Source: Verrucomicrobiota bacterium
GTDB lineage: Bacteria > Verrucomicrobiota > Verrucomicrobiia > Opitutales > UBA2995
Direction of reading: 5' to 3'
DNA length: 46,686 nucleotides
Assembly (NCBI GenBank): GCA_027622555.1
Contig: JAQBYJ010000034.1
Span: forward strand, 1-46,686
Positions within the stretch are counted from its first letter, which is position 1; every line of letters starts with the position of its first letter. The notes beneath the pieces are model-generated. The model was not told the DNA's origin. It worked only from the letters and a program-made list of their open reading frames with translations, and did not search any database. The translations under genes were made by a program, and so were the position numbers. This document shows, piece after piece, positions 36,252 through 43,514 of this stretch.

Positions 36252-38327
36252 ATGAAAAACATCCTAATCTCATTTATTCTCCTAGCTTGCCTACCCGCAG
36301 CATCTTTCAGTCAAAATAGAATTGGCACAGGCGGAATGAAAGACCTCTACATTCAGTATTGCGCTGCCTGCCACGGACAGAACATGGAAGGCGGACAAGG
36401 TAGCTCGCTCATAGACGATGAATGGAAGAATGGCTCATCGGATGCAGAAATTGCCAATGTAATTCGAAATGGTATCCCCGATTTGGGCATGGTTCCCTGG
36501 AAAGACGTCCTCAGCGAAGAACAAATTCGCGGCCTAATTATTTTAATGCGGGAACAGAAACAACTCGCAGAAACGACGGGTATCCTGGAAAAAGTGAAAC
36601 CTTTGGGAGGTGTATTTTCCACGGATCACCACAATTTCAAACTAGAGAAAGTAGCGGAAACAGAAGGTGTCATCTGGTCGATCGCATTTCTACCTGACGA
36701 ATCCATTCTTTTCACTGAACGCAGCGGAACCCTCTGGCACCAAACAGACGGCAAAAAGATAGAGATTAAAGGGACACCCAAAGTTTTAGCCGTTAGCCAA
36801 GGTGGCCTACTAGAAGTAGCACCTCATCCAGACTATGCCAATAACGGATGGATTTACCTCTCATTTAGTGAAGATCTCGGGGCAAAGATTGATGGAAAAG
36901 TCGCTTCCATGACAGCTGTTGTTAGAGGTAAAATAAAAAACAATAAATGGGTGGAGGAAGAAGAAATCTTCAGAGCACCAAAAGAATTTCATACCACTAA
37001 AGGCGGACATTATGGCTCTCGTTTTGTGTTTAAGGACGAATACCTGTTTTTCAGTATTGGTGAACGTCAGGAAGGAGAACCGGCGCAGGATCTTACCGTA
37101 CCACATGGAAAAGTTCACCGCATCTATCAGGATGGCAGAATCCCTACAGGCAATCCGTTCTATAATACAAAAGGAGCTTATAAAAGTATTTGGACCTACG
37201 GAAACAGAAATCCTCAGGGCTTGGACATGAACCCGGTCACTGGGGATATCTGGGAAACAGAACACGGTCCACGCGGTGGAGATGAGCTCAATTTGATAAA
37301 ACCAGGAGTCAACTACGGTTGGCCGGTAATTACTTACGGCATGAACTACGATGGTTCTCCATGGACAGACAAAACCCACATGGATGGTATGGAACAACCG
37401 GTTCATTATTGGCTCCCTTCTATCGCGACCGGCGGCATCGATTTTTATGAAGGAGACAAATTTTCTCATTGGAAAAACAACCTCCTTGTCAGCGGAATGG
37501 CCTCCGAAGAAATTCAGCGCCTGGTCATCGAAGACGGAAAGGTGGTCCACCGGGAAACCATTCTAAAACAACAAGGGCGAGTGAGGGACATCGCATCAGG
37601 ACCTGACGGTATGATCTATGTTGCCTTAAATACTCGTAGCCCCGATCACGGAACACTCTTTCGCTTGGTGCCAACGCCAGAGCCCCGTTGGACAAGCCTC
37701 TTCAATGGGACTAACCTTAATGGATGGGAAGTACGAGATGGCACATCCACCGTCCTGGTTGACGACGGAGCGATGGTTGCTTTCCACCAGGGAACGACCG
37801 GACATTCCTACCTCACCACTAAAAAAACGTTCGGAGACTTTATCCTGGAACTCGACGTCAAGGTCATAGGTGACCTCAACTCTGGCATTTTGTTAAGAGG
37901 AGTGAGTGATCCAAGCTTCAAGAATGGCAAGGTACACGGCTATCAAATGGAAATCGATCAATCCGACAGAAAATGGACGGGGGGCATCTATGAAGAAATG
38001 GGGCGCGGCTGGCTGTATTCACTCGAAGGCAAAGAAGACGCACGCAAAGCTTACCGTCCCTCTGAATGGAATCATTACCGAATCGAGGCCATTGGAGATC
38101 ATTTCAGAATCTGGGTGAACGGCACCCCCACCCTCAATATGGTTGATAAGAAAACAGCCGAAGGCGTTATCGGTTTCCAAATACACAATTTGCCAAAAAA
38201 CGGTGGAGGCGGATCCGTATCTATTCGTAATGTCCGGATTATTGCCGACGAAGCAGGAAACCAGATTCAAGGCATAGCCATTCCAGAAGTCGCCGTTGAA
38301 GAAAAAACTTCAAAAAGCGGGGCTTAA
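36252..38327 (+). CDS. Periplasmic fusion: cytochrome c, PQQ-type sugar dehydrogenase, DUF1080
   Basis: A 691-residue exported three-part protein. Residues 1-20 are a signal peptide. About 28-95 form a class I cytochrome c, with heme motif C37-A-A-C40-H41 and probable axial M80. About 120-470 is a glucose/sorbosone dehydrogenase beta-propeller of the soluble PQQ type, with 'IWTYGNRNPQGLDMNPVTGDIWETEHGPRGGDELN' and 'GVNYGWPVITYG'. Residues 477-668 are a DUF1080 domain opening 'WTSLFNGTNLNGWEV'. It could oxidise a sugar, pass electrons through its own heme and cleave the oxidised glycoside. Its stop overlaps the ThuA-ankyrin start by one base. Confidence 0.92.
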   Translation: MKNILISFILLACLPAASFSQNRIGTGGMKDLYIQYCAACHGQNMEGGQGSSLIDDEWKNGSSDAEIANVIRNGIPDLGMVPWKDVLSEEQIRGLIILMREQKQLAETTGILEKVKPLGGVFSTDHHNFKLEKVAETEGVIWSIAFLPDESILFTERSGTLWHQTDGKKIEIKGTPKVLAVSQGGLLEVAPHPDYANNGWIYLSFSEDLGAKIDGKVASMTAVVRGKIKNNKWVEEEEIFRAPKEFHTTKGGHYGSRFVFKDEYLFFSIGERQEGEPAQDLTVPHGKVHRIYQDGRIPTGNPFYNTKGAYKSIWTYGNRNPQGLDMNPVTGDIWETEHGPRGGDELNLIKPGVNYGWPVITYGMNYDGSPWTDKTHMDGMEQPVHYWLPSIATGGIDFYEGDKFSHWKNNLLVSGMASEEIQRLVIEDGKVVHRETILKQQGRVRDIASGPDGMIYVALNTRSPDHGTLFRLVPTPEPRWTSLFNGTNLNGWEVRDGTSTVLVDDGAMVAFHQGTTGHSYLTTKKTFGDFILELDVKVIGDLNSGILLRGVSDPSFKNGKVHGYQMEIDQSDRKWTGGIYEEMGRGWLYSLEGKEDARKAYRPSEWNHYRIEAIGDHFRIWVNGTPTLNMVDKKTAEGVIGFQIHNLPKNGGGGSVSIRNVRIIADEAGNQIQGIAIPEVAVEEKTSKSGA

Positions 38328-39754
38328 TGCGGCGAATTTGGTCAAGGAAAGTTACGCTCATTTGGACGGCCTTGGTCTGTACTTTCAGCACGGCCTGCGC
38401 AGCAGAAGAAAAGAAAGTTCTGTTCCTAGCTGGTGAACCCAGCCACGGCTGGAATGCCCATGAATTTGTAGCAGGAAGTCAACTTCTGGCAGACTGTTTA
38501 AATCAAAGTGGCCTCGGAATTTCGGCCTCCGTAAGCGAAGGCTGGCCGAAAGATTCAAACCGATTAAAGGACATCTCAGCCATCGTGCTATACACAGATG
38601 GAGAAGACCTTCATGTTGCAAAGGGTCAAACCGAACTACTTGGAGCTCTACACGATTCAGGTATCGGATTTATTGTTCTTCACTACGCCCTCGAAGGAGC
38701 AGACCAAGAAATGAATGGGTTTTATCTTGATTCAATCGGAGGGTATTTTGAAGTCGATTGGTCGGTAAATCCACAATGGATGTTGGAAAACGTCACCTTG
38801 GCCGACCACCCGATTAACTCTGGGGTCAGCGCATTCCTGACAGAAGATGAATGGTATTTTCATATGCGATTCCGGGAAGACATGACTGGAATCACTCCCA
38901 TTTTGTCGACCTTGGCTACGGAGAAAGCTTTGGGCCAGGATGGTCCACGCTCCGGAAATCCAACTCTGCGGCAGGAACTACAAAACGGCGTGCCTCAGCA
39001 TTTGGCTTGGGCAACCGAAAATCCCGGAAAAGGCCGCGGCTTCGCACTTACTGGCGGAAATTTTCATCATAACTGGTCTCACGATGATTTTAGAAAACAG
39101 GTACTAAATGGGATCGCATGGACTGCCGGAGTTAAAATTCCCGAAACCGGAGTAGACTCCAAAGTATCCGGACTCATAAAATACCAGACCATAAGTGAGG
39201 CTATTGCTCGAAACGATTTGGAGGATGTAAAGCGACATTTAGAAAAAGACCCAAACACCGTAAACGAAATTGGTAAGAGTAGGATGACACCGCTTCATGA
39301 AGCGATTATGCGAAAGCGGCCCGAGGCAGCGCTGCTGTTACTCGCTGCTCATGCGGATCCAAATATAATTACTAGCCGAAGCCAGACAGCCATGCATCTG
39401 GCTATCGATCGCGATCTATTAAACGTTGCCGAAGCGATACTGGACGTTGGCGTAGATTTGAATGTTCGAGACAGTCAAGGGTGGACCGCTCTTCATTTAG
39501 CTGGTGCAAAGAACCGAAACTCAATAAGCAAATTACTTCTTGAAAATGGTGCCGATGTAACACGCCTGAGTGCAGCTGGAGGCACCCCACTCCACGAAGC
39601 AGCCGTTGGCGGCGATGCGGAATTAATCCACTTGTTATTAGATGCTGGAATTGATCCAAGCATCATTTCCGATCACAAAAAAACCGCACTCGACATTGCC
39701 AAAGAATACGAAAATGCGGTGGCTATAGAAATTCTTTCGAAGCTCTCTGAATAA
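38327..39754 (+). CDS. Secreted ThuA-domain protein with C-terminal ankyrin repeats
   Basis: A 475-residue exported protein. Residues 1-25 are a signal peptide ending ACA. About 29-265 is a ThuA-like glutamine-amidotransferase-fold domain ('KVLFLAGEPSHGWNAHEF', 'GIGFIVLHYALEGA', 'GRGFALTGGNFHHNWSHDDFRKQVLNGIAWTAG'). About 285-475 hold five or so ankyrin repeats ('TPLHEAIMRKRPEAALLLLAAHADPNI', 'TALHLAGAKNRNSISKLLLENGADVTR', 'TPLHEAAVGGDAELIHLLLDAGIDPSI'). ThuA takes part in 3-keto-sugar and trehalose use in rhizobia; ankyrin repeats mediate protein contact. The start overlaps the previous stop by one base, so the two genes are coupled. Confidence 0.9.
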   Translation: MRRIWSRKVTLIWTALVCTFSTACAAEEKKVLFLAGEPSHGWNAHEFVAGSQLLADCLNQSGLGISASVSEGWPKDSNRLKDISAIVLYTDGEDLHVAKGQTELLGALHDSGIGFIVLHYALEGADQEMNGFYLDSIGGYFEVDWSVNPQWMLENVTLADHPINSGVSAFLTEDEWYFHMRFREDMTGITPILSTLATEKALGQDGPRSGNPTLRQELQNGVPQHLAWATENPGKGRGFALTGGNFHHNWSHDDFRKQVLNGIAWTAGVKIPETGVDSKVSGLIKYQTISEAIARNDLEDVKRHLEKDPNTVNEIGKSRMTPLHEAIMRKRPEAALLLLAAHADPNIITSRSQTAMHLAIDRDLLNVAEAILDVGVDLNVRDSQGWTALHLAGAKNRNSISKLLLENGADVTRLSAAGGTPLHEAAVGGDAELIHLLLDAGIDPSIISDHKKTALDIAKEYENAVAIEILSKLSE

Positions 39755-39999: not shown

Positions 40000-40680
40000 T
40001 TAGGAACTGCCATTAAGTTCATTTAGCTGATCTTCCAATTTCTTTCGCTCCATCTCAAGCTGAGTTTTATCCAAGTCGCGGGGAATATAGTAGAGTGCTG
40101 GAATCCGAACCGTTATTCTGGCAAACGGCTTGGGAACGATTAATTTATCCCAGGATTTTACACGCCAGGCACGATCAGCGTCACAGGAAAATAAACAGAG
40201 CGGTGCGCCAGACAATTGTGCCAGAACAATGGCACCTGCTTTGGCTTTATAGATCGGACCTTGAGACCCATCCGGTAAAATAAGAATTGAGCTTCGTTCT
40301 TTTTGAACCTCCCGAAAGAGACCGCGAAGCGCTTTACTTCCTCCACGATTGGAAGATCCGCGCACGACTCTAAGCTTGGCCCACTTGCCCAGCAAGTAAC
40401 CAAAGTTACCATCCTTCGACAGGCTCACCATTTGCGTCAGCCTAAACCCTTTTCGGGTTAAGTGTTTTTCAACAAAACGGGACAAGAAAAAAACACGATT
40501 ATGCCAAGCGCATAAAATCACCGGGTCAGTCCGCTCGAGTAATTCTTTGATCCGACCCTCTCCTTCCGAGAACCGGATTCGGTAAGTTGATGCAAGGAGC
40601 AAGGTAATACCCCGCAAAAGAACCGCTATGCAGTAAGCTTTTAGCGGAATGGGATTCTGGGCGGCCGTTTCGGTCGGCAT
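40000..40680 (-). CDS. DUF374 lysophospholipid acyltransferase-family protein
   Basis: A 226-residue membrane-associated acyltransferase. Residues about 13-33 are hydrophobic. The family's active-site features follow: 'VILCAWHNRVFFLSRF' (catalytic-histidine region), 'LSKDGNFGYLLGKWAKLRVVRGSSNRGGSKALRGL' and 'ILPDGSQGPIYKAKAGAIVLAQLSGAPL', the DUF374 substrate motif. Relatives transfer acyl chains to lipid A-like or phospholipid acceptors. It is the last gene of a four-gene minus-strand operon with a diiron protein, a fatty-acyl-AMP ligase and an acyl carrier protein, so an acyl-carrier-bound chain is its likely donor. Confidence 0.87.
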   Translation of the reverse strand: MPTETAAQNPIPLKAYCIAVLLRGITLLLASTYRIRFSEGEGRIKELLERTDPVILCAWHNRVFFLSRFVEKHLTRKGFRLTQMVSLSKDGNFGYLLGKWAKLRVVRGSSNRGGSKALRGLFREVQKERSSILILPDGSQGPIYKAKAGAIVLAQLSGAPLCLFSCDADRAWRVKSWDKLIVPKPFARITVRIPALYYIPRDLDKTQLEMERKKLEDQLNELNGSS

Positions 40681-40685
40681 TTGCT

Positions 40686-40910
40686 TTAGACGTTCACCTG
40701 TTTCAGCACGTCGCCTACCGTTTCCATTGCGGCGGCTTCTTCATCGGTAATCTCAATTTCTAAAGCCTCCTCCAACTCAAATAATAACTGTAAAGCCATA
40801 GGCGAATCGATACCTAAACCCGAAGCTAAATCTGTCTCTGGGGTTATTTCGCTGCGTTCCTTGCCTGTTAACTTGGTCAGGATATTGTATACAGTGTCTT
40901 CGTTACTCAT
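40686..40910 (-). CDS. Acyl carrier protein, dedicated
   Basis: A 74-residue acidic carrier protein. The phosphopantetheine attachment serine is S36 in 'GLGIDSPMALQLLFELEE', and the four-helix layout with 'EITDEEAAAMETVGDVLKQV' is complete. It differs from a housekeeping AcpP (D-S-L-D-x-V-E) by having D-S-P-M-A-L, typical of carriers devoted to side pathways. The gene lies between the fatty-acyl-AMP ligase (22 bases) and the DUF374 acyltransferase (5 bases). A phosphopantetheinyl transferase from elsewhere is needed to activate it. Confidence 0.93.
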   Translation of the reverse strand: MSNEDTVYNILTKLTGKERSEITPETDLASGLGIDSPMALQLLFELEEALEIEITDEEAAAMETVGDVLKQVNV

Positions 40911-40932
40911 GGGAATAAATAAAAATTTAAGA

Positions 40933-42681
40933 TCAATTCAAGCGATCGAGCTTACCCTGTAAATAGTCTTCTTTCAAAATGCCTCTCTGAATTTTTCCAC
41001 TCGTCGTTTTGGGCAATTGACCTCTTCGTATGAAAACCAAATCTGCTAATATAAGGCTCATCGAACGCCCAATTCGACTTCGAATCTTTTCATCCAGTTC
41101 TTTCATTTCCTCAAGATTGGTTATCGATGTCTCAACCACCAGCACCGGTTCTTCGCCATTGGTATTATCCAAAATGGAAAAAGCACCACTGCGCTCGGCG
41201 CCACCACGTCCACGAACTTCTTCCACCTGCCATTCAATATCATGGGGCATAATATTTTCGCCACGAATGATGAGGACTTCTTTTGCGCGACCTACCAAAT
41301 AAAGCTCACCATTCCGAATAAACCCCAGATCTCCAGTCTTCAACCAACCATCGGCCATCGTATCCTCAGTGGCCTCGACATCCCCATAATAACCGTCAAA
41401 AATGCTGGGGCCTTTAGCCTGAATCGCACCCAGCCTTCCTTCAGGTAATAAGGTAGTATCGTCGGATGCATCAACAACCCGAATAGACGTATCATGGATC
41501 GGGGTACCACAACATGCGACCGGCTCAATGGTTTGGCCTCCAGGTTCTTCATCCGGGGAAGAAACGCGAATTCCCCGCCCCGCTTGATCAAACGTAAGAC
41601 CAACCGTAGATTCCGCCATCCCGTAACTAGGCAAGAAATGTTCCGCCTTGAGTCCAGTTGGTTCCATCTTTTTCAAAAACGCTTCCATCGTATCCGGTCG
41701 AATCATTTCGGATCCAATGGAAAAACGTTTAGGTAAAGAAAGATCGATCCCTTCCAGTTGGGCATCTTTAATCCTTTCAACACAAAACTGATAACCGAAG
41801 GTTGGCGCTGGAGATATAAATTTTTTCCCTGAGCAGGCTTCCAACCACTTGATAGGACGCCCAAGAAATGTGGCAGGATTCATGAGAAGAATGTTCCAAC
41901 CGGCGGCTATTCCAAAAAACACTCCGATGAGCCCCATGTCATGATTTAAAGGCAACCAGGTTATAAAATTTTCGTTCCAATCCTCAGACTTTTTGCCGTA
42001 AGGCCCGCCACATGAAAAATCCAGACAAAACACATTATGTATGATCGCTCGGTGAGATATCATCACAGCTCTGGGTATTCCAGTAGACCCACTGGTGAAT
42101 TGCAAAAAAGCCATGTTCTCTACTCTTACTTTTTGGAAATCAGGAACAGATAAGGATTCGCGACTAAAAAGATCAGACGATGAAACACAGATAGATGTTA
42201 GAGAATCCATTTGTTTACCCTGAACAAATTCGACCAAGGCATCGTTGCTGATAATATGATTTGCAGATATTACCTTTCGAAAACGATCTAAGCGCAGGTG
42301 GAAATTGGACGAGGGGCCAAGTCCGCCGATGGGGGGCGCAATGGCCGCCGGATAGGCACCAAGGTAAACACATCCCAACCATAATTCCAGTAGCTCCCAG
42401 CTTGTGTGAAGCGAGATTAATACTCTATCGCCATGTTTGACCCCGCTCGAAGCCAAACAACCGGCTGCATGCTGTATTCTCGAAAATATTTCCGGGTAAA
42501 GACGCTTTTCAGCGGTCACTCCTTTGCGATCATAAACACTAATTCCCTTATCCGGATGTTTAACTGAGTTCTTTTGAAAAAGCTCCATTAATGTAACACC
42601 TGCGTATTCAGAAAGAATCGAGGAGTCCGCGCCTCGTATTAGAGATAGAGGAGAAGCTGAGGTGGAAGATTCGTTACTCAC
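40933..42681 (-). CDS. Fatty-acyl-AMP ligase (FAAL-like adenylating enzyme)
   Basis: An ANL-superfamily enzyme of 582 residues that activates a fatty acid with ATP. It has the AMP-binding loop 'FTSGSTGIPRAVMISHR' (about 195-211) and the FAAL-type stretch 'ITWLPLNHDMGLIGVFFGI', followed by 'NPATFLGRPIKWLEACSGKKFISPAPTFGYQFCVERI'. 'LPSYGMAESTVGLTF', 'GWLKTGDLGFIRNGELYLVGRAKEVLIIRGENIMPHDIE' and the catalytic lysine of 'PKTTSGKIQR' complete it. The 'LPLxHDMGLIG' and 'RPIKWL' elements are typical of ligases that pass acyl-AMP to a carrier protein rather than to CoA. It overlaps the diiron gene by four bases and the carrier gene follows, which supports that reading. Confidence 0.9.
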   Translation of the reverse strand: MSNESSTSASPLSLIRGADSSILSEYAGVTLMELFQKNSVKHPDKGISVYDRKGVTAEKRLYPEIFSRIQHAAGCLASSGVKHGDRVLISLHTSWELLELWLGCVYLGAYPAAIAPPIGGLGPSSNFHLRLDRFRKVISANHIISNDALVEFVQGKQMDSLTSICVSSSDLFSRESLSVPDFQKVRVENMAFLQFTSGSTGIPRAVMISHRAIIHNVFCLDFSCGGPYGKKSEDWNENFITWLPLNHDMGLIGVFFGIAAGWNILLMNPATFLGRPIKWLEACSGKKFISPAPTFGYQFCVERIKDAQLEGIDLSLPKRFSIGSEMIRPDTMEAFLKKMEPTGLKAEHFLPSYGMAESTVGLTFDQAGRGIRVSSPDEEPGGQTIEPVACCGTPIHDTSIRVVDASDDTTLLPEGRLGAIQAKGPSIFDGYYGDVEATEDTMADGWLKTGDLGFIRNGELYLVGRAKEVLIIRGENIMPHDIEWQVEEVRGRGGAERSGAFSILDNTNGEEPVLVVETSITNLEEMKELDEKIRSRIGRSMSLILADLVFIRRGQLPKTTSGKIQRGILKEDYLQGKLDRLN

Positions 42682-43514
42682 TGTCCTACTGCAACAATCA
42701 AGTCTTCGTCTTTAATCTTGATACCTTGCGTTGCCTTGCGGCCAGCCAGGATAGATTTCTCAAGACGACGTTTAGTCACGGTACTCACGGAATCGATGAT
42801 TTTATCACGATCCAAACCGATAGATATCAGTTCATTTTTCAAAGCATCCAAAATAGGTGCTACACCTTCAAGAACATGCAATCGACGTTTCTCCAAATGG
42901 GCGGCAAACTTTTCTGCTTCTTCCTCACCTTTCGTTTCGTGGATCTGTTTAAATCGATCGGACATGTAAACATGATTAAACCCGAGATGCCGGGCCTCGT
43001 CTTCCAGAATACCCGCACAGATATCACTCAAAACTGGATCAATATCGGCCTCCCGAAATTCATGACTCACCGTTTGTGCAACCGTTTCACTGACGAGAAC
43101 ACCAGTCAAACACTCTGCAGGTTCCTTAGAAATTATCCGGCTTTGGAATAAATACCCAGCCGGGAAACGGCGGATTGAAAGCGGCTCACGACCAATGCGA
43201 TGGTAGTATCGGGCAAACAGCTCTGTATGCCGAGCTTCGTCCACCGCCCAGGTGGTCAGAAACATCTGACCTTCAACTTCACTTCTATGACCAAGCACGG
43301 GAATCAGTCCCGAAACGCTATAAAGCGCGGACTGCTCTCCAGTGAGGACTGGAGTCAACACCTTAGCCAAATCATCCAGTTTTGATTTGCTAACATTGGG
43401 CAAAGCTTTCTTCCAATTGATTTCCTCAGCGGACCATTGTTTATCGATACCTTGATACCACAAACGCATCTGACGTTCGTTGCTTAGATCTGGCAGGACT
43501 TTATAAATATTCAT
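42678..43514 (-). CDS. R2-like ferritin-fold diiron protein
   Basis: A 278-residue soluble helical protein with a full set of diiron ligands in the order of ribonucleotide-reductase R2 and R2-like proteins: E60, E93-A-R-H96, E143 and E173-A-R-H176. The N-terminal 'RQMRLWYQGIDKQWSAEEINW' also resembles R2. It lacks the rest of R2 (no large-subunit-binding tail and no nrdA nearby). In an operon with a fatty-acyl-AMP ligase and an acyl carrier protein it is best read as an oxygenase or desaturase working on carrier-bound acyl chains. AurF/CmlI-like N-oxygenases are alternatives, but the extra histidine of those is not seen. First gene of the operon. Confidence 0.85.
   Translation of the reverse strand: MNIYKVLPDLSNERQMRLWYQGIDKQWSAEEINWKKALPNVSKSKLDDLAKVLTPVLTGEQSALYSVSGLIPVLGHRSEVEGQMFLTTWAVDEARHTELFARYYHRIGREPLSIRRFPAGYLFQSRIISKEPAECLTGVLVSETVAQTVSHEFREADIDPVLSDICAGILEDEARHLGFNHVYMSDRFKQIHETKGEEEAEKFAAHLEKRRLHVLEGVAPILDALKNELISIGLDRDKIIDSVSTVTKRRLEKSILAGRKATQGIKIKDEDLIVAVGQ

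Follow-up and report, generated by a model that had tools for sequence, protein, structure and literature searches.

The window considered here, i.e. the whole analysed stretch of 46,686 nucleotides on contig JAQBYJ010000034.1 of a Verrucomicrobiota bacterium of the order Opitutales (assembly GCA_027622555.1, a draft with 238 contigs and a total size of 6.0 Mb), carries an operon of four genes that code for an R2-like ferritin-fold diiron protein, a fatty-acyl-AMP ligase (FAAL), a separate acyl carrier protein (ACP) and an acyltransferase of the DUF374 family (Table 1). The genes are spaced by -4, 22 and 5 bases, and their products match the Pfam families AurF (E 2.2e-9), AMP-binding (1.3e-43), PP-binding (5.7e-11) and DUF374 (1.2e-14). 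The coordinates of the open reading frames (ORFs) bear out what had been read earlier from the sequence alone (hereafter the original prediction), namely four intact minus-strand genes at just this spacing, and the key residues named there are all present, i.e. the six diiron ligands, the ligase lysine, S36 of the carrier and the DUF374 motif (7/7 homologues). As the gene order recurs in other genera amid differing flanking genes, the operon is not a chance arrangement.

Table 1. Genes of the operon (columns: product, positions in the window, strand, remarks)
R2-like ferritin-fold diiron protein	42678-43514	minus	278 aa; first gene of four
Fatty-acyl-AMP ligase, FAAL type	40933-42681	minus	582 aa; GTG start; 4-base overlap with diiron gene
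Separate acyl carrier protein	40686-40910	minus	74 aa; S36 within GIDSP
DUF374 (LpxJ-type) acyltransferase	40000-40680	minus	226 aa; W59, H60, D90, D137, W177, D178

The family of the diiron protein is rare. In tallies that each include the query's own genome and rest on overlapping genome samples, it occurs in 4 of 53 relatives (E ≤ 1e-8), in 3 of 387 genomes of the phylum and 7 of 372 of the order (both E ≤ 1e-15), and in 8 of 392 genomes of the Planctomycetota, the phylum of L007 (E ≤ 1e-15); sampling centred on Verrucomicrobiota and Planctomycetota, with other phyla barely covered. The named relatives that carry the family are metagenome-assembled genomes titled Opitutaceae, Verrucomicrobia and Planctomycetota, and G003 and G004, which belong to the window's genus, have neither the diiron gene nor an FAAL at E ≤ 1e-50. 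The surroundings were compared at the 14 loci whose readable sequence extends past the diiron gene, seven in Verrucomicrobiota (G000, G001, G002, L005, G379, G329, G1055) and seven in Planctomycetota (L006, L007, G581, G482, G719, G463, G505); G002 and L008, whose contigs are equally long and give the same match, count as one locus, and G005, G520 and a second G463 contig, which end inside the diiron gene, were left out. FAAL is present at 14/14 of these loci and the carrier at 13/14, in contrast to DUF374 at 7/14, and therefore the conserved core is the triad of diiron protein, ligase and carrier. Divided by phylum, FAAL, carrier and DUF374 are found at 7/7, 7/7 and 6/7 Verrucomicrobiota loci and at 7/7, 6/7 and 1/7 Planctomycetota loci, respectively, i.e. 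DUF374 is a frequent partner of the triad in Verrucomicrobiota only. The search for the four families as neighbours that accompanied the original prediction as a proposed check has thus revealed a triad conserved in both phyla.

All four families also occur in G505, strongly diverged and reordered, with FAAL, carrier and diiron protein in this order and DUF374 divergent; the identities are 20.6% for the diiron protein (in which Asp replaces E143), 27% for the FAAL and 29% for DUF374. This different arrangement of the four families argues for a tie that includes DUF374. The distances of diiron protein and FAAL correlate with an r of 0.94 (11 loci without G505; 0/5000 permutations as high) and those of diiron protein and DUF374 with an r of 0.88 (6 loci without G505; 33/5000 permutations as high), values that shared descent alone can produce. 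In G463 the diiron gene beside the FAAL is no more than a fragment: one contig begins with a piece that lacks its middle, beside FAAL and carrier (L032:1-300), and another ends inside a second copy of the gene (L031:3-371), so that either decay or an assembly fault may underlie these fragmentary copies. A fusion of diiron protein and FAAL in Planctomycetota was considered and rejected, as the long ORFs of L027 and L032 that suggested it arise where the frame of the FAAL is prolonged in a wrong frame.

In the diiron protein E60, E93, H96, E143, E173 and H176 constitute a 2-His/4-carboxylate set, which is invariant in 6/6 aligned members and in 11/11 counted members of a further alignment (13 rows, of which G482, in a wrong frame, and the very diverged G505, with Asp for E143, were set aside). 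Sequence searches rank the R2-like ligand-binding oxidase (R2lox) first and the aldehyde-deformylating oxygenase (ADO) second, both of which bind fatty ligands, and the best NCBIfam match is R2lox, too. A structure model (six sequences; mean predicted local distance difference test score, pLDDT, 79.3; predicted template modelling score, pTM, 0.80) has its best fold match in R2lox from M. tuberculosis (Z 24.3, root-mean-square deviation 3.2, 266 residues), followed by ADO (Z 22.5) and several small subunits of ribonucleotide reductase (RNR; Z 21.4-22.2). The margins are small, and AurF, CylC and acyl-ACP desaturases are not among the 50 structural matches listed, which does not exclude these families.

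Residues separate the ferritin-fold families better than fold scores do. The protein has the ferritin fold and the two His and four Glu ligands of R2lox, all six being identical (PMC6060897, PMC10867098, as far as these describe them). It differs from R2lox, however, in the Val-Tyr ether cross-link, the residues of which are given as V72 and Y162 in G. kaustophilus (PMC6060897): Ala63 is found at the Val position, there is no Tyr between residues 128 and 142, and the NCBIfam R2lox score is 49.0 bits vs a cut-off of 194, so that R2lox proper was rejected. ADO was rejected as well, with 14 bits for Pfam Ald_deCOase vs a cut-off of 28, despite the likeness in fold. NrdB shares the fold, but no RNR beta model from NCBIfam or Pfam matched, and Phe100 (11/11 counted members) stands where the radical Tyr would be expected, a position that we take to be four residues after the first His ligand; some RNR classes likewise lack the radical Tyr. 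The initial assignment as an R2-like protein other than ordinary NrdB is consistent with these results, the protein reaching the cut-off of no NrdB or R2lox model. An N-oxygenase of the AurF type was rejected, too. The Pfam AurF match, found in 6/6 members, is above cut-off but spans only residues 84-195, and Ile at position 169 (11/11 counted members) means that the extra His is missing which lies four residues before the last ExxH in the 3-His/4-carboxylate site of AurF. In a CylC-type halogenase the motifs QExxH and HxxDExxH are reported to provide 3 His and 3 Glu (PMC12101540), whereas 11/11 counted members have D92 for Gln and I169 for His. As its motif is DExxH, a third His is lacking and a fourth carboxylate is present, the diiron protein does not belong to the halogenase family. 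To judge from its sequence, the diiron family forms a separate branch close to R2lox and ADO and corresponds to neither CylC nor R2lox in the strict sense.

The ligase and the carrier can be assigned in a similar manner. The ligase lysine, K563, is invariant in 12/12 FAALs. Among solved structures, the matches of the FAAL profile run from 4.4e-120 to 5.6e-66 for FAALs and FAAL-like adenylation domains, with 4-coumarate coenzyme A (CoA) ligases following from 5.6e-50, and in a Foldseek search with the ligase model (pLDDT 81.2) the first 4-coumarate CoA ligase appears at rank 39; the NCBIfam FAAL model gives 354 bits, below its cut-off of 600. By profile and predicted fold the ligase is thus of FAAL type, nearer to FAALs than to acyl-CoA ligases, and its sequence makes rejection of CoA likely. 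After the YG-AE motif 3pbk, 7r7g and 3kxw have 10-11 residues more than the profile of the ligase family, a stretch that may be read as the FAAL-specific insertion. The carrier of the operon is distinct from the other carriers of the genome, the nearest of which is 29% identical to it and is located between ketosynthase- and ketoreductase-like ORFs (identified by eye), as for AcpP. An FAAL-type ligase with a separate carrier, as originally described, is hence what we find.

LpxJ, formerly DUF374, is reported to add a secondary chain to lipid A, and W60, H61, D86, D132, W172 and D173 are described as essential in the enzyme from R. typhi (PMC6148475). The DUF374 protein of the operon belongs to the same Pfam family and contains all six residues (W59, H60, D90, D137, W177 and D178, matched by order and motif), which are invariant in 7/7 homologues, and the genome codes for LpxC. 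Unlike the operon enzyme, LpxJ has no FAAL and carrier of its own in the accessible part of its description (PMC6148475), and the acceptor of the operon enzyme is a putative one. The residues of LpxJ are in place, but an acyltransferase as a fixed last step is not supported, since the gene is missing near half of the 14 loci. A second DUF374 protein of the genome (L042:1228-1869) reads KSWNK at the site of the SWD motif shared by the operon copy and its homologues; the Asp of SWD is the one described as essential in R. typhi LpxJ.

With moderate confidence we propose that the operon represents a module for oxidising a carrier-bound fatty-acyl chain and that, where DUF374 is present, this chain is then delivered to lipid A or a lipid like it. 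The FAAL would adenylate a free fatty acid and move it onto the phosphopantetheine arm at S36 of the operon's carrier. The R2-like protein, supplied with electrons by a donor that the host encodes outside the operon, may then use its two-metal site (Fe/Fe or Mn/Fe) to activate O2 and would oxidise a C-H bond of the carrier-bound chain; by resemblance, hydroxylation is the most likely outcome and is preferred over desaturation. At loci with DUF374 the LpxJ-type acyltransferase might finally unload the carrier and attach the oxidised chain to lipid A or another envelope lipid related to it. The analysis shows the genes, their intact residues, the predicted folds and the conservation, whereas each of the reactions is inferred, as are metal, electron donor, chain length and acceptor. 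The original prediction of an oxidised acyl chain destined for an envelope lipid is, overall, partly supported, and none of the three outcomes named with it as refuting has come to light.

Several observations weigh against this proposal. The diiron family is without any known activity, and deletion of litE, which is the R2-like gene in the most similar arrangement described so far, is reported to have had only minor effects (PMC10616846). No DUF374 gene lies near 7/14 triads, one of them from Verrucomicrobiota, i.e. the acyl-transfer step is not general, and the genome possesses three LpxL-type proteins in addition to the second DUF374 protein, which makes the operon DUF374 look like an extra, specialised enzyme. 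In G719 the FAAL is followed by a lyase-type gene instead of a carrier, on a contig that stops ~0.9 kb beyond the FAAL. Finally, FAAL-like matches without a diiron gene are found in 4/53 relatives (G009, G011, G014, G051), scoring 225-383 bits as compared to 895-922 bits for the operon FAALs. A more far-reaching version of the proposal, in which R2-like oxygenases of a family of their own work on carrier-held acyl chains and, in Opitutales, a second, specialised LpxJ puts the oxidised chain on lipid A, is tentative, and we consider it possible rather than probable.

Among the alternatives we rate desaturation highest, unlikely as it is. In this case the diiron protein would act on the carrier-bound chain like the soluble acyl-ACP desaturases, producing an unsaturated chain for lipid remodelling. 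The ligands are of the same kind, the substrate would again be carrier-bound, and a weak match to Pfam FA_desaturase_2 exists (E 0.0029, below cut-off), but this match is confined to 1/6 members, and R2lox and ADO score far better in both sequence and fold. Next in our ranking, and improbable as well, is a triad whose product is a specialised metabolite or an oxidised acid in free form, DUF374 being a loose neighbour rather than a delivery step. Its absence from the vicinity of 7/14 triads would be in line with such a role, as would the fact that the CylA/B/C and lit genes are described as serving natural products (PMC12101540, PMC10616846). Yet polyketide synthase, non-ribosomal peptide synthetase (NRPS) and thioesterase were not seen in the Pfam-scanned flanks of the triads, where many ORFs are without assignment, and DUF374 adjoins even the reordered set in G505.

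The remaining alternatives concern the diiron reaction itself. The protein might leave acyl-carriers alone and oxidise something else, e.g. an alkane or an alcohol, with FAAL, carrier and acyltransferase serving to return fatty acids to lipids. We assign a low probability to this possibility: some R2lox genes are embedded in sets of alcohol and aldehyde dehydrogenases (Rhodococcus; Geobacillus, according to PMC10867098), but here the constant neighbour of the diiron gene is the FAAL and not DUF374. Internal cleavage of the carrier-bound chain in a BioE-like manner, resulting in a short dicarboxylic or aldehyde-ended acyl-carrier, is less probable again. BioE is described as a 2-His/4-Glu protein that acts on acyl-ACP and is likened to ADO by its authors (PMC12915131), and ADO is the second-best relative of the diiron protein; biotin genes, however, were not found in the Pfam-scanned flanks. 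Least probable of all is chlorination of the carrier-bound chain, with the diiron protein as a halogenase like CylC and NocO. Such an enzyme would share the FAAL-ACP-diiron logic of the Cyl and Noc systems, as these are described, and all six members match Pfam AurF, but D at 92 and I at 169 are incompatible with QExxH and HxxDExxH, and the fourth carboxylate, E143, is kept. Oxidation of the carrier-bound chain, most likely by hydroxylation, is thus the reading that we prefer.

R2-like genes were also sought on mobile DNA. One scan of viral contigs gave no relative confirmed by tblastn, and phage records gave no match. Among plasmids one record matched with 24.5% identity and led to haloarchaeal and Streptomyces settings; a haloarchaeal R2-like query found plasmid-bearing records of 34 species, and 9 regions from 8 of these species were inspected. 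FAAL or carrier adjoins the R2-like gene in 3/9 of these regions. On a plasmid of Streptomyces sp. NBC_00557 (L066:4265-6912) an FAAL-type gene overlaps the R2-like gene by 4 bases, with no carrier listed; condensation-domain, NRPS and tryptophan-halogenase genes are close to this pair. On plasmids of Haloterrigena turkmenica (L064:621-8033) and Haloferax mediterranei (L069:4983-10605) the R2-like gene adjoins a gene of NADPH:quinone-oxidoreductase type, and carrier, ketosynthase, holo-ACP synthase, malonyltransferase and FabG genes are close to it, so that both regions, by their sequence, appear to code for an archaeal ACP-based acyl pathway with an R2-like oxidase. In the other 6/9 regions neither FAAL nor carrier adjoins the R2-like gene, absences that are soft given that the plasmid gene table is incomplete. 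These regions comprise S. goshikiensis (ketosynthase- and adenylate-forming genes ~3-6 kb from the R2-like gene), H. alkaliphila, H. turkmenica pHTUR04, Halococcus, Halomarina (AMP-binding genes nearby; the one tested is of CoA-ligase type) and Rhodococcus (dehydrogenases, ferredoxin and CoA ligase around the R2-like gene). The association of R2-like genes with FAAL or carrier is hence recurrent, but not universal, and Streptomyces and haloarchaea provide parallel settings for other R2-like proteins.

The genes that flank the operon vary by genus, i.e. a ThuA-ankyrin gene is found in the window and in L008, a sulfatase-type ORF in G001, ketopantoate hydroxymethyltransferase in L005 and a HisA-type gene in G379 and G329. 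In the window (36252-39754) a protein combining cytochrome c, glucose-sorbosone dehydrogenase and 3-keto-disaccharide hydrolase is directly followed by a ThuA domain fused to ankyrin repeats, and this cytochrome c-type/ThuA-ankyrin gene pair also adjoins the operon in L008, with 74-79% identity. A scan gave 9 promoter-like sites vs 5.8 (standard deviation 2.4) in shuffled sequences and 11 terminator-like sites vs 4.8 (standard deviation 1.9), all 11 being located within the four genes.

If the more far-reaching version of our proposal is correct, R2-like oxidases, whose natural substrates have been hard to fix, would gain a defined substrate class, acyl-ACP, and a route to oxidised lipid A chains would open. 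The substrates of R2lox have been called a long-standing question, and the Geobacillus R2lox is reported to be an alkane monooxygenase on the basis of crude recombinant enzyme and lysate (PMC10867098). A compact and conserved set in which an R2-like protein comes with its own ligase and carrier points to a substrate open to direct preparation and assay, and the LpxJ-type partner hints at a possible destination of the modified chain. Moreover, a 2-His/4-carboxylate branch would be added to the FAAL-ACP-diiron logic of the cyanobacterial halogenases.

The combination of genes had originally been regarded as without precedent, a claim that does not hold, since CylA/B/C, litD-litE-litF and BioE, a diiron acyl-ACP oxygenase, had been missed. 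In our literature searches no paper treated an R2-like enzyme, an FAAL and a carrier as a unit, and the terms diiron, CylC, ribonucleotide and lipothrenin are all absent from the accessible part of an FAAL review (PMC11837247). CylA, CylB and CylC are described as FAAL, ACP and ferritin-like diiron enzyme (PMC12101540), and CylC and NocO are reported to act on ACP-bound chains, which establishes the FAAL-ACP-diiron logic in cyanobacteria (PMC12101540, PMC8406957). In CylA/B/C and NocL/M/O, as described, the FAAL loads the carrier and the ferritin-like diiron enzyme works on the bound chain, as the genes suggest for the operon; the enzymes differ in the ligand motifs discussed above. The lipothrenin cluster of Streptomyces aureus contains litD (FAAL), litE (326 aa, annotated as 'ribonucleotide-diphosphate reductase', with no role assigned in the accessible text) and litF (ACP) consecutively (PMC10616846). 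FAAL, R2-annotated gene and carrier are thus side by side as in the operon, litE being compared by annotation, but gene order and size of the R2-like protein differ, many further genes are present and the table, as far as accessible, lists no DUF374. BioE is reported to be a diiron oxygenase with a 2-His/4-Glu site that oxidises long-chain acyl-ACP and cleaves it at C7-C8 to pimeloyl (PMC12915131). It resembles the operon protein in its 2-His/4-carboxylate site and has an acyl-ACP substrate, but the spacing of the ligands, compared by their numbers, is different (E68-E140, 72 residues, vs E93-E143, 50 residues), and no FAAL or own carrier is mentioned in the accessible part of the source. Taken together, the FAAL-ACP-diiron logic is known, whereas the variant described here, in which the diiron enzyme comes from a family distinct from both CylC and R2lox proper, appears to be new.

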